Positions 1 to 18,782 of a DNA stretch of 64,000 nt are shown here, piece by piece; the stretch's first letter is position 1; each line of letters begins with the position of its first letter. Origin of the DNA: Hyphomicrobiales bacterium. Its GTDB lineage: Bacteria; Pseudomonadota; Alphaproteobacteria; Rhizobiales; CAJQND01. Position numbers and translations under genes: made by a program. The stretch is from assembly GCA_028285595.1 (NCBI GenBank), contig JANQOW010000137.1, forward strand, positions 1 through 64,000. The letters are read 5' to 3'. The notes under the pieces are model-generated. The model searched no databases. It saw only the letters and a program-made list of their open reading frames with translations, and had not been told where the DNA came from.

Positions 1-1
1 C

Positions 2-274
2 CTGGCGCAAGGGGCGGTTATGGCCTTGGAGGACGCGGTGATCTTAGCGGCTCAACTGGAGGCCCATGAGAGCGCCGAAAGTGCTCTCAGAGCCTACGAG
101 GCCGCGCGCCAGCCAAGGCTTGCCCAGATGTATGACATGTGCCGCAAAGCCGGCATGGCCTATCACGCCGGCGGCCCCTTCCGGTTCATCCGCAATCTGG
201 TCTTGCGCCGCATGAGCGATACGGCCTCGCGAAACCGGGTGGCGTGGATTTATGATTGGCGTGCCTCTGGTTAA
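2..274 (+). CDS. FAD-dependent monooxygenase, C-terminal part (5' end outside window)
   Basis: The frame is open from base 2, so only the last 90 codons are present. The opening residues AQGAVMALEDAVILA match the motif near the C-terminus of PHBH/UbiH-type flavin monooxygenases, where a Gly-rich turn and a conserved Glu-Asp contact FAD, followed by the usual helix with AYEAARQPR. These enzymes hydroxylate aromatic or related substrates using NAD(P)H and O2. The substrate cannot be inferred because the N-terminal domain is missing. Its TAA stop overlaps the stop of the convergent PEP-CTERM gene. Family confidence is good; function is open. Confidence 0.75.
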   Translation: MAQGAVMALEDAVILAAQLEAHESAESALRAYEAARQPRLAQMYDMCRKAGMAYHAGGPFRFIRNLVLRRMSDTASRNRVAWIYDWRASG

Positions 275-1194
275 GAGCTGGGGTTCAAACCCGGCAGCAG
301 TGGTTCTTTCCTTTTGCGTCTCCTGCGCATGAAACCGAGTAGGCCTACCGCACTGAGGAGCAATGGCAAGGCCGCGGGAGTTGGAACCTCAGCATGGGGT
401 GCGACACCGTCGGTATAGTTAAATCCGGAATCAGATCCCAAAAGCCCATTAACAATCTCATTGCCGCTATCGTCGAACACTGTGGACCCAATGAGCCTCA
501 AGCTATTGTATGCGTCCACGCCTAATCGACACGTTCCAGTCTTATTTGGACTTCCAAGCGCTCCTTGCGCACCGCAGTTTTGTTCGGTGAATAAGGCGAT
601 GCCGAGGTCCAGCTGCCCCCCGTTAAAAGTTAAGTCTATGAAACCGGAACCTGTGGAACCGATATCATCCGTATCAACCAAAACAGCTGTTGGATTATTG
701 GCATAAAGATTTACGCGCTGAAAAACGACTTGAGAGTTCACGGTTGCATTAAAAGTGTTTCTCGCAAAGTTGATCGAGCTCCCAAAAAAAGATCCGGTCA
801 CCTGCTCAACAAAATTAGCGGAGATGTCGTAGAACAAGCGATATACTCCCGTTTGTTCTGCAAAATATAATGTATCGAAGATACTAGCCCCGCCCCGCCA
901 AAAATCGTTGCTACCGGGGGAGGGTTCTCCAAATATCGAACCTATGACCTGACTTCTCAGCCCAATGTCTCCATACGATGCCCTCGCATCGATGCCGTCT
1001 CCCGTTGCGAAAGATCCACAAGAGGCGTTTGCTACGCCACTGGAAGCTGATTGACTGTCGCAAGTTGATCCAAGTGTGGATTGCGTAAACACGTTTAGAA
1101 CGGCTGCTTGGGCCGCGCTGGTGCTGGCGATAAATGTAATTGCGATAATCGCATGCAAATAAATGGTAAGCTTTAAATTCTGGATGTTTTTCAT
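271..1194 (-). CDS. PEP-CTERM (VPLPA-type) sorting domain surface protein
   Basis: This encodes 307 residues from the ATG at 1194; an in-frame TTG at 1236 would add 14 residues ahead of a clear signal peptide and is less likely. The N-terminus has a basic start, a hydrophobic run and an ASTSAAQA cleavage region. The C-terminus has the tripartite sorting signal: a Pro-Thr-Pro-Ala-Ala motif, a hydrophobic segment (LPLLLSAVGLLGF) and a cluster of Arg/Lys. In known systems an exosortase cuts such proteins at the membrane; none is visible here. The middle is Ser/Gly/Asn-rich with paired Cys residues and no recognised enzyme fold. Base composition is AT-richer than most of the window. A role at the surface or in extracellular matrix is inferred from the sorting signal only. 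Confidence 0.8.
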   Translation of the reverse strand: MKNIQNLKLTIYLHAIIAITFIASTSAAQAAVLNVFTQSTLGSTCDSQSASSGVANASCGSFATGDGIDARASYGDIGLRSQVIGSIFGEPSPGSNDFWRGGASIFDTLYFAEQTGVYRLFYDISANFVEQVTGSFFGSSINFARNTFNATVNSQVVFQRVNLYANNPTAVLVDTDDIGSTGSGFIDLTFNGGQLDLGIALFTEQNCGAQGALGSPNKTGTCRLGVDAYNSLRLIGSTVFDDSGNEIVNGLLGSDSGFNYTDGVAPHAEVPTPAALPLLLSAVGLLGFMRRRRKRKEPLLPGLNPSS

Positions 1195-1632
1195 CTTTAC
1201 AAAACTTTCTTTGAATTCAATTCTTGGCTTTCTCAAAGTATCCGCTCATTTGATTTTTTATCTGAATACAATCGCATGAGGATCGACGTTGTTGGTTGGC
1301 GCTCGTCATATTCTGGCTCGAACGCCAACAGTCGCGACAATAATCTGTAACGATTACCCCAGGCATGACCCAATTGGACTATCGCACATCACGAATTGAA
1401 AAAAATTCTCGTTAAGATATAGAGGCTTGAATGTGTGTTCTTGTTATGTTGGTGTTATTTGGAGGTGTTGCTATATGACGTTGAGTGTAAACAACTGAAT
1501 GCAAAAAATGTCCGTTTATATACTGTCCGATATTTATTCTGTACGCTGAATATTTGAAATGCAGATTCGATTTTTCATGTTCCTGAATGTTTAGGTTTTC
1601 CAAATTGATCTCGTCGGGAGAAAGCTTGTTTC
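1195..1632. other. AT-rich divergent intergenic region
   Basis: About 440 bases separate the divergent PEP-CTERM and LuxR-type genes, and they are visibly AT-richer than the surroundings. The region should hold both promoters. A GGGAGAAA ribosome-binding site lies about 10 bases before the LuxR ATG at 1633. A 63-codon frame on the minus strand (1412-1603) has no recognisable domain and I do not call it a gene. No convincing long palindrome was found. Confidence 0.5.
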
Positions 1633-2769
1633 ATGCTTATTCAATTTGAAGACCAGGCCCGATTGTCATCACTCGCTTTTGCAGCTGCGTTGGACGCAAG
1701 TCGTTGGCAGGATTACTTTGATCATCTCGCAAGGATTTCAGGCGGGGTGCGGCCAATGCTCGTGGGTCAGGATTTGACAACAGGGGTTACGCCCGTGGCG
1801 GTTTCCTCTGGATATGACCCAGACTCTCTCGATATCTACAACACGTATTATGCAGACAAAAACTTGTGGGCCAGGCGTTTCGTAGACTGCGAGCCAGGCG
1901 TGCCAATGTCCGCGGAGGAGATGTGTCCGCGCGAAGTGCTGGAAAAGTCTGAGTTTTACAATGATTGGGTGCTCCCCACTGATGACATAATCGGCGGCGG
2001 TGGGACTGTCTTGTTCAGGGATGAAAGCCGGATGTTTTTGCTCGGCGGCAATATTCGGCGAAGAGATGTGGACAGACTTGAAGGTAACTGGCTTGACCTT
2101 GTAAGACTTCTCGCGCCTCAATTGCAGGGCGCTCTGGAGATCCATCGGACTATCTCCGGTCTAAAGTTCGAACAATGGGCTAGCCAGGAGGCAGGCGCCT
2201 CGCACGACACATCCATTGTTATTCTCGATTCCGATCGCCGGATTCACTACAGAAGCAAGAGGGCAGACGAACAAATTGCGGACGGCAGTGTGATCGCAAC
2301 TGATTTACAGGGCCGACTTTGTTTTGCCGACCCCAGCACGCAACAGCGATTGGCATTGGGCTTGAAGCGCTCCTGGGACGACCACAATTCTGGTCCACTG
2401 GTGTTTATAGGCAAGGCACTGGATTCGAAGCGGCGTTATGTCTGCAGACTTGCAAGTATGGACCCTCAATACTTCGATTCTTCGCCATTCGGTGTTGTGC
2501 TCGGGCCGACGGGCAACATGCATCTGCTCACAGCCGAGCCGCTCGATCGTAAGCAGAGAACAGACCCCGACATAGTCACACACTCTGCATTGACAAAATC
2601 GGAAACCGACATTGTGTTTCAGTTCGCGGATGGACATTCGCTTCGCGACATATCAGAGTCACGCAAAGTCAGTCTGCACACAGTTCGCAATCAAATAAAA
2701 TCTGCGATGGCAAAGCTGGATGTCCATCGCCAGGTCGATCTGGTGCGTCTTGTTCAGAACATGAAATGA
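1633..2769 (+). CDS. LuxR-family helix-turn-helix transcriptional regulator
   Basis: This is a 378-residue protein whose last 60 residues (about 320-378) form a LuxR/FixJ-type DNA-binding domain: LTKSETDIV, then DGHSLRDIS, then VSLHTVRNQIKSAMAKL. The N-terminal 300 residues are not an obvious acyl-homoserine-lactone or response-receiver domain; no phosphoacceptor pattern was seen. Similar long LuxR proteins with an uncharacterised PAS-like front half are common in alphaproteobacteria. It is divergent from the PEP-CTERM gene and shares its AT-richer composition, so it may control that gene. The start is supported by GGGAGAAA about 10 bases upstream. The signal sensed is unknown. Confidence 0.8.
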   Translation: MLIQFEDQARLSSLAFAAALDASRWQDYFDHLARISGGVRPMLVGQDLTTGVTPVAVSSGYDPDSLDIYNTYYADKNLWARRFVDCEPGVPMSAEEMCPREVLEKSEFYNDWVLPTDDIIGGGGTVLFRDESRMFLLGGNIRRRDVDRLEGNWLDLVRLLAPQLQGALEIHRTISGLKFEQWASQEAGASHDTSIVILDSDRRIHYRSKRADEQIADGSVIATDLQGRLCFADPSTQQRLALGLKRSWDDHNSGPLVFIGKALDSKRRYVCRLASMDPQYFDSSPFGVVLGPTGNMHLLTAEPLDRKQRTDPDIVTHSALTKSETDIVFQFADGHSLRDISESRKVSLHTVRNQIKSAMAKLDVHRQVDLVRLVQNMK

Positions 2770-2950
2770 GTGATTGAAGCACGTATCGAATGATCCGCTA
2801 TTTCAGTCCAGCTGCTTCCATGATGGAGGAACAGGCGCGGCGTACGCACGTCCTGGACCTGCCCCTTTCCGGTCAGCGGGATGCTCGCTGATTGGCGCAT
2901 GGGCGTTGCTCGTATACTCTGCCTGAAAAAAGCAAACCCAGGAGACGCTC

Positions 2951-4288
2951 GTGAATCTTCACCGCATGCTCGGCGCAAGAGCCGAAGAAGGCCGCCCTAT
3001 TGGTGTGGGCCTGATCGGGGCCGGCAAATTCGGCACCATGTTTCTCACCCAGGCCCGCCTGACCACGGGGCTTGCCATCACCGGCATTGCGGATCTGGAC
3101 GTAAACCGGGCGCAAAGTTCATGTGCGCTGGCCGGCTGGCCGGCTGAACAAACGGTGATAGGGGACCTGGCGGGCGCCGATAATTCCGGCCCCACCACCA
3201 TTGGAGATGATGCCGAAGCGCTCATCAATAACCCGTCGGTGGAGGTGATCATCGATGCCACCGGACACCCGTCGGCCGGCATTCATCACTGCCTGAAGGC
3301 CATTGAGGCGGGCAAGCATGTGGTGATGGTGAACGTTGAAGCCGATGTGGTGGCCGGGCCGCTGCTGGCGCGCAAGGCGAAAGAGGCGGGCGTGGTCTAT
3401 TCGCTCGCCTGGGGCGATCAGCCGGCCTTGATCTGCGAGCATGTGGACTGGGCCCGGGCGTGCGGCTTCAAGGTGGTGTGCGCCGGCAAGGGGACGCGCT
3501 ATCTGCCGCAATATCATGGCCTGACGCCGGAGAGCGTTTGGGATGTGCTGAAGATCTACCTTAACGTGGATGAGAACAGCGACATCAACCCGAAGATGTT
3601 CAATTCGTTCCTGGACGGCACCAAGTCCGGCATTGAAATGACGGCGGTGTGCAATGCCACCGGGCTGGTGCCGCAGGCCGATGGGCTGAAGTTCCCGCCG
3701 GCAAGCCGGTTCGAACTCGCCGATGTGTGCAAGCCGCAAAGTGCGGGCGGCCAGCTCACCGCGGACGGCACGACGGAGTGTGTCTCTTCCCTCTATCGCG
3801 ATGGCAGCGATGTGCCCCACAATCTGGTGATGGGCACCTATGTGGTGTTTGAGGGGGAGACGGATTATGCCCGCGAGTGCTTCAGCCAATATCACATGCT
3901 TCAGGACGAGAGCGCCCGCTATGCCGCGCTCTATCGGCCTATCCATATGATCGGTCTGGAGTTGGGCCTGTCGGTGGCCTCGGCCGCCCTGCGCGGTGAG
4001 CCCACGGGGGCGCCCATATGTTTCAACTCCGACGTGGTGGCGACCGCCAAACGGCCGTTGAAAGCCGGCGAGGTTTTGGACGGGGAGGGCGGCTACATGG
4101 TCTGGGGTCAGCAGATGCCGGCGTCCACATCTTTGCAGCTCGGCGGTTTGCCCTTGGGCCTGGCGCAAGGCGTTAAGGTGGCCCACGATATCAGCGAGGG
4201 CGCGCGCCTGACCTGGAGCGACGTGGTGATTGATCAGACGGATGCGGCGGTGAAGGTGAGGCGCGAGATGGAGACAGCGTTCGGCTGA
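2951..4288 (+). CDS. Homoserine dehydrogenase-like NAD(P)-dependent oxidoreductase with C-terminal SAF domain
   Basis: This encodes 445 residues from a GTG at 2951 with CAGGAGA just upstream. The N-terminal Rossmann fold shows GLIGAGKFGTMF (about residues 18-29) and the region around residues 95-150 has the DATGHPSAG and GKHVVMVNVEAD patterns of COG4091 proteins, described as predicted homoserine dehydrogenases. The C-terminal 90 residues (AKRPLKAGEVL) resemble the SAF domain that binds carbohydrate or acid substrates. Family members oxidise hydroxy acids or sugar acids with NAD(P), but this member's substrate is not known. It converges on the dioxygenase gene downstream and has no close co-directional partner. 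Confidence 0.8.
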   Translation: MNLHRMLGARAEEGRPIGVGLIGAGKFGTMFLTQARLTTGLAITGIADLDVNRAQSSCALAGWPAEQTVIGDLAGADNSGPTTIGDDAEALINNPSVEVIIDATGHPSAGIHHCLKAIEAGKHVVMVNVEADVVAGPLLARKAKEAGVVYSLAWGDQPALICEHVDWARACGFKVVCAGKGTRYLPQYHGLTPESVWDVLKIYLNVDENSDINPKMFNSFLDGTKSGIEMTAVCNATGLVPQADGLKFPPASRFELADVCKPQSAGGQLTADGTTECVSSLYRDGSDVPHNLVMGTYVVFEGETDYARECFSQYHMLQDESARYAALYRPIHMIGLELGLSVASAALRGEPTGAPICFNSDVVATAKRPLKAGEVLDGEGGYMVWGQQMPASTSLQLGGLPLGLAQGVKVAHDISEGARLTWSDVVIDQTDAAVKVRREMETAFG

Positions 4289-17715: not shown

Positions 17716-18645
17716 CTAGCTTGCGGCCGCCGCGCGCCTTTGCTCTACAATGCGCATGAAATCCCGCGCCGTGGGATCGGATTGGTCCACAAGCGCGCGG
17801 AAATCCTCAAACCCAAGAGCCAGCGCGGAGACCGGCGTGTTGGCCCGCACGTCAGCGGTGCGCCGGGTCTCGTTCAGGATGCCCATCTCGCCGAACACAT
17901 CGCCCTCGCCAAGCCGTGCAAGCTCGACCTCCTGGCCAGAGGAGCGCCGGTGAATGACGCTGACTTCGCCGGAGACCAGAATGAAAAACTGATCGGCTTC
18001 CCCGCCCTGGTGGATAATCACATCCCCGGCCTCATAAAGCCGTGTGTTGAGCTGATTGGAGGCCTCAATCAGGGCTGAGGTTTTCACCCTCGGGAAGACT
18101 TTGGCCAGCCACTCGTTGTAGCGCCGGCTGCCCTGGCCCGGATGCCAGCCCACCGGGCAAAGCTCGCCGCTTTGCAGGGCGCGCAGGACGCGCAGGATTT
18201 CGTCCACGTTGCGGCCGATATCCAGATCGTTGATCGCCAAGTGACGCACCACGCCGTCCGGATCGATAATGAAGGTGCCCCGCAAGGCCGAGCCATTGTC
18301 CACCAGAATTCCGAACGCCTCGGTGAGCTTGTGCGAGGTGTCGGCGATCACCGGGAAGGTCACACCCTCCAGTTGCTCGTCCTGGCTGAACCAGGCTTCG
18401 TGGCTGAAGAAGCTGTCGGTGCTGGCAGCGATCAGTGCGGTGTCTTCGCGGTCAAACTCCTCGCGCAAGGCCGCAAACGCGGCCAGCTCCGTGGGGCAAA
18501 TGTAAGAGAAATCACGCACATAGAAGAACAGAACCAGCCATCTGCCCCTGTAGTCTCTCAGAGACATCTCCTGTGTGGAGGCGATGCCTCTCTGCCAGTA
18601 TTCGACGCGAATATCCGGCGCTTTTTGTCCGATTCCGATTGCCAT
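17716..18645 (-). CDS. Peroxiredoxin fused to a cyclic-nucleotide-binding domain
   Basis: This has 309 residues from the ATG at 18645; the longer frame to 18948 adds low-quality sequence. Residues 1-185 are a typical 2-Cys peroxiredoxin with peroxidatic Cys50 in YICPTEL and resolving Cys163 in ELCPVGW. The usual PxxxTxxC motif reads VRDFSYIC, with Val replacing Pro43 and Ser replacing Thr47. Residues about 195-300 form a CRP-type nucleotide-binding beta-barrel (HQGGEADQFFILVSGEVSV) with a phosphate-binding cassette FGEMGILNETRRTADV containing the Glu and Arg expected to hold cAMP or cGMP. No DNA-binding domain follows. This suggests a peroxidase controlled by a cyclic nucleotide. GTP cyclohydrolase II follows in the same frame after the TAG. 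Confidence 0.88.
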   Translation of the reverse strand: MAIGIGQKAPDIRVEYWQRGIASTQEMSLRDYRGRWLVLFFYVRDFSYICPTELAAFAALREEFDREDTALIAASTDSFFSHEAWFSQDEQLEGVTFPVIADTSHKLTEAFGILVDNGSALRGTFIIDPDGVVRHLAINDLDIGRNVDEILRVLRALQSGELCPVGWHPGQGSRRYNEWLAKVFPRVKTSALIEASNQLNTRLYEAGDVIIHQGGEADQFFILVSGEVSVIHRRSSGQEVELARLGEGDVFGEMGILNETRRTADVRANTPVSALALGFEDFRALVDQSDPTARDFMRIVEQRRAAAAS

Positions 18646-18782
18646 AGCCGGCGGGCCTCTGATCGTCCCCTCTTCCCCTTCTAGCGCCCAACCCCGGACT
18701 GTGAAGTGAGCTTTCGCACACCTTGGCCGCCATTTGCCCATTTTACAGGGCAAATTCCGCTTGAATAGAGCAAAGTTGAGGG

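Follow-up and report, generated by a model that had tools for sequence, protein, structure and literature searches.

A peroxiredoxin joined to a cyclic-nucleotide-binding domain in a Hyphomicrobiales bacterium, a candidate for peroxide reduction gated by cAMP or cGMP

The window analysed (the whole 64,000-nucleotide stretch of contig JANQOW010000137.1 from a Hyphomicrobiales bacterium, positions 1 to 64,000) carries on its minus strand an open reading frame of 309 codons, which runs from 18645 to 17716 in a single uninterrupted frame and encodes a peroxiredoxin (Prx) followed by a cyclic-nucleotide-binding domain (cNBD). The gene, its parts and a conserved block upstream of it are listed below.

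17716..18645, minus strand: prx-cNBD fusion gene (309 amino acids plus stop), defined by an open reading frame with an ATG start, by Pfam and by orthologues
18130..18645, minus strand: Prx1/AhpC-type 2-Cys peroxiredoxin domain (residues 1-172), supported by Pfam AhpC-TSA and by matches to PDB peroxiredoxins in sequence and fold
18496..18519, minus strand: peroxidatic motif VRDFSYIC (residues 43-50), with Val43 in place of the Pro, Ser47 in place of the Thr and Cys50 as the peroxidatic cysteine
18280..18282, minus strand: Arg122, the arginine of the catalytic triad, invariant in a 46-row alignment
18157..18159, minus strand: Cys163, the resolving cysteine in GELCPVGW, placed by alignments to Prx1-type chains and fusions
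18049..18129, minus strand: linker together with the first helices of the cNBD (residues 173-199); the two genus members share 93% identity here
17776..18048, minus strand: cNBD beta barrel (residues 200-290), supported by Pfam, by a structure model and by fold matches at Z 18-20 to cAMP- or cGMP-bound cNBDs
17848..17904, minus strand: phosphate-binding cassette (residues 248-266, GDVFGEMGILNETRRTADV region), with Glu253, Arg262 and Thr263
18692..18756, minus strand: non-coding block ahead of the gene, conserved at 62 of 65 bases in the same-genus genome despite differences of about 0.63-0.70 at the gene's synonymous sites

The open frame continues upstream as far as 18948. The stop-to-stop frame of the same-genus orthologue measures only 317 amino acids, so that the ATG at 18645 is the supported start, and a longer N-terminus drawn from the upstream open frame was ruled out by this comparison. 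In a Pfam scan, AhpC-TSA was assigned to residues 5-135 (E 1.1e-31) and cNMP_binding to residues 202-288 (E 1.4e-25), both far above cut-off, the only other model reported being the overlapping Redoxin. An earlier, sequence-only reading had described a 2-Cys peroxiredoxin (Cys50, Cys163) joined to a nucleotide-binding barrel, and both the residues and the domains were confirmed by the sequence and by Pfam. It had also noted the absence of a DNA-binding domain, with which the scan agrees: no helix-turn-helix family was reported, and the chain terminates about 19 residues past the barrel. A frameshifted or split gene, raised in the same reading as an alternative, was ruled out by the presence of the intact fusion in three genomes, the full-length orthologues being those of a same-genus genome (86% identity) and of a genome from another family of the order (62%). 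The 309-residue protein is a genuine, intact Prx-cNBD fusion.

Upstream of the gene lies a ubiG-like methyltransferase gene and downstream of it one for GTP cyclohydrolase II, both on the same strand as the fusion. The same-genus genome shares both neighbours; genome G857 does not, and its fusion is flanked by a chemotaxis receptor and an SDR gene. The upstream block at 18692-18756 contains an 8-bp inverted repeat (ATTTGCCC...GGGCAAAT), which has one mismatch in the relative, together with a weak pair of CRP-like half-sites. Its near-identity between the genus members suggests a regulatory element, a candidate promoter or operator. The CRP-like site itself was not counted, since 16 matches occur in the window against 19.9 expected by chance. 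Positions 1-4000 of the window have a GC content of 0.536, compared with about 0.58-0.63 elsewhere in it.

The best solved relatives of the Prx domain are Prx1-4 and AhpC, and its Foldseek matches comprise Prx3, Prx2 and AhpC. With the typical 2-Cys enzymes of the Prx1/AhpC group it shares the fold, the positions of the peroxidatic and resolving cysteines and the Ser and Arg of the triad, whereas it differs from them in carrying a cNBD instead of the C-terminal tail and a Val for the motif Pro. Cys163 is invariant across the four fusions and aligns with the resolving-cysteine region of Prx1-type chains, and the linker to the cNBD starts where the C-terminal helix of those chains would be. The AhpC equivalog model TIGR03137 scored 134.8 bits, below its curated cut-off of 272, and the alignment to Prx1-type chains showed no GGLG feature of the kind found in hyperoxidation-sensitive peroxiredoxins.

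The active-site motif was compared among 129 relatives covering it, a sample skewed toward sequences that this query retrieves. The Pro is present in 127 and the Thr in 125 of them. Val (codon 43, GTG) stands at the Pro position in two sequences, those of the two genus members, and Ser at the Thr position in the three fusions covering the motif and in one stand-alone peroxiredoxin (L075), the sole such Ser-type relative in the sample, which keeps the motif Pro. The motif of the 62% orthologue reads PRDFSFLC, so the Pro is retained there as well. Ser-for-Thr is a recognised natural variant of 2-Cys peroxiredoxins (about 6.3% among the analysed sequences, 7.4% in bacteria; PMC5024103, PMC8300647). 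As in the fusion, Ser replaces the catalytic Thr in yeast Tsa2 and Amphibacillus AhpC (PMC5024103, PMC8300647), although no cNBD is reported with these Ser-type enzymes; their decamers are more stable (PMC5024103, PMC8300647) and their chaperone activity is higher (PMC8300647). Of the altered active-site motif put forward from the sequence, the letters therefore stand and the Pro-to-Val change is unusual, whereas the Ser does not count as an oddity. Val43 is a genus-level change that has no link to the fusion as such, and the pocket around the active site may be weakened by it in these genus members. With one half of the alteration ordinary and the other genus-specific, the motif is not among the features that define the fusion.

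The cNBD is recognised by PF00027 at 89.5 bits (Pfam cut-off 27.5), and its cassette can be aligned to the PKA and PKG cassettes. Glu253 and Arg262, the residues expected to hold the ribose and the phosphate, are invariant in all four fusions, in keeping with the earlier statement that the Glu and Arg for ligand binding are retained and at odds with a loss of binding residues among relatives; Thr263 is replaced by Met in the fourth fusion, a copy from a metagenome-assembled genome (MAG). A model of residues 178-309 (pLDDT 84.6) gave fold matches at Z 18-20 to cAMP- or cGMP-bound cNBDs, including those of GlxR, M. tuberculosis CRP, the cAMP-binding acetyltransferase Rv0998, PKG and HCN channels. 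FNR proteins, which have the cNBD fold and use no cyclic nucleotide, match the model too (Z 18.5), and the fold alone thus does not reveal the ligand; nor would the conserved cassette in itself prove that a cyclic nucleotide is bound. The regulators of the CRP/FNR family (Clr, GlxR, CRP) share the cNBD fold and the cassette, but the fusion lacks their helix-turn-helix and has a peroxiredoxin as partner domain. Mycobacterial Rv0998 (Pat) likewise combines a bacterial cNBD with an enzyme in one chain (fold match Z 18.8), and an NCBIfam match to Pat spans the cNBD of the fusion; its enzyme, however, is an acetyltransferase and its cNBD is N-terminal.

The fourth fusion is a partial copy (53% identity over residues 66-307) on contig JACZST010000183.1 (L038) of an acidobacterial MAG. 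Near position 3,420 of this contig, where the match starts, the GC content drops from about 0.64 to 0.54, and at the same point the copy breaks off, lacking its first 66 residues. Because of this abrupt change and the missing N-terminal part the contig looks chimeric, and the host of the copy is unsure. The Prx parts of the four fusions form one clade (support 97/98), for which a single fusion event suffices. Their closest stand-alone relatives in the sample belong to a planctomycete's phylum and to Patescibacteria, not to the bacterium's own class (support 85/65 and 91/80), which hints, with modest support, at horizontal acquisition of the Prx part. A comparison of the gene in the two genus members gave differences of about 0.63-0.70 at synonymous sites and dN/dS values, rough with dS near saturation, of 0.075 (Prx), 0.041 (cNBD) and 0.023 (linker). 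These values clearly point to purifying selection on all parts of the fusion.

The searches covered 385 genomes from the class, 397 from the order, 349 from the phylum, 382 from a planctomycete's phylum and 396 from that of the MAG; at the E cut-offs used they gave no further fusion, the MAG's own copy being the only one in the last group. The total sample comprised about 1,900 genomes, some of them drawn more than once, and only the top candidates in each genome were scored, so that weaker or independent Prx-cNBD fusions could escape. A search of genome contigs returned the MAG copy as the only fusion. Phage and plasmid collections (72,556 plasmids, 50,697 phage records) contained no match covering 80%, and viral contigs none to the fusion; a phage or plasmid origin was rejected on these grounds. 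Among the best 60 structural matches, none was a solved structure spanning both domains, and no Prx-cNBD fusion was found in the literature searched, in which most subscription journals were lacking. At the cut-offs used, the fusion appears to be rare and of single origin.

Peroxiredoxins are usually regulated through their oxidation state, oligomer switching or phosphorylation. The protein described here is a 2-Cys peroxiredoxin of the Prx1/AhpC group with its tail replaced by a cNBD, and on balance we consider it somewhat probable that this domain binds cAMP or cGMP and gates the peroxidase. Cys50 would reduce peroxide, after which the active site would locally unfold and the sulfenic acid formed on Cys50 would yield a disulfide with Cys163 of the partner subunit, to be reduced in turn by a thioredoxin-type donor. 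Bound cAMP or cGMP would shift the first cNBD helices, as known for other cNBDs, and this movement would alter the balance between the folded and unfolded states of the resolving-cysteine tail, favouring or hindering the disulfide step. The messenger could thereby raise or lower peroxidase turnover, oligomer stability or resistance to hyperoxidation. Cys163 sits about 10 residues ahead of the linker, which continues into the first helices of the cNBD, and the proposed coupling path from the Cys163 tail to the cNBD is argued from this chain order, since the full-length model (pTM 0.54) does not place the two domains reliably relative to each other. Peroxide reduction or signalling gated by cAMP or cGMP had already been proposed from the letters alone; the intact fusion, its conserved binding residues and the many cyclases of the genome support that reading in part, and the gating itself is an inference.

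Other uses of the same anatomy were weighed against gating. The cNBD might be a structural or targeting module that stabilises or caps the Prx ring or positions the enzyme near another protein, any ligand having no catalytic effect. It occupies the place of the usual C-terminal tail, and the superfamily includes proteins such as FNR that have the fold and dispense with cyclic nucleotides, but this role is unlikely given that Glu253 and Arg262 persist in all four fusions while some other cNBDs of the same genome have cassette losses (for example Glu to Asp in L156 and Arg to Tyr in L154). The flow could also be reversed, with the Prx as a peroxide sensor in which oxidation of Cys50 changes nucleotide binding or release by the cNBD, making the protein a redox-controlled cAMP/cGMP sink, or a relay to a partner. 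The same anatomy would serve this arrangement, within the genus the linker and cNBD are conserved at least as much as the Prx domain, and Val43 could adjust peroxide reactivity for signalling. It is nevertheless rather unlikely, as there is no output domain and no conserved partner gene, the neighbours differing between the genus and G857, and a sink would require an abundant protein.

Very improbable, finally, is a peroxidase so weakened by Val43 in this genus that its chief role would now be that of a chaperone or a binding protein. The confinement of Val to the two genus members, against a Pro nearly everywhere else, and the stabler decamers and chaperone activity of Ser-type enzymes (PMC8300647) speak for it, yet Cys50, Ser47, Arg122 and Cys163 are all retained and the dN/dS of the Prx is low.

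If gating by a cyclic nucleotide holds, it would constitute a direct allosteric link from cAMP/cGMP signalling to peroxide metabolism. Rather more tentatively, with chances that we put a little under even, the fusion would represent an unreported class of peroxiredoxin in which cAMP or cGMP controls the catalytic cycle directly through the fused cNBD and peroxide removal is tied to signalling without transcription. The 6-Mb genome encodes 24 class III adenylate/guanylate cyclase domains, which could provide the ligand and for which the fusion would be one candidate enzyme target. It also encodes 15 cNBDs above the cut-off, and some of these are fused to other partners (L147, L150, L156 and L157), whose regions, judged by eye from the sequences, are EAL-like, mechanosensitive-channel-like, acetyltransferase-like and CBS/nucleotidyltransferase-like. 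With several such cNBD-effector fusions, the attachment of a cNBD to an effector appears to be a habit in this genome.
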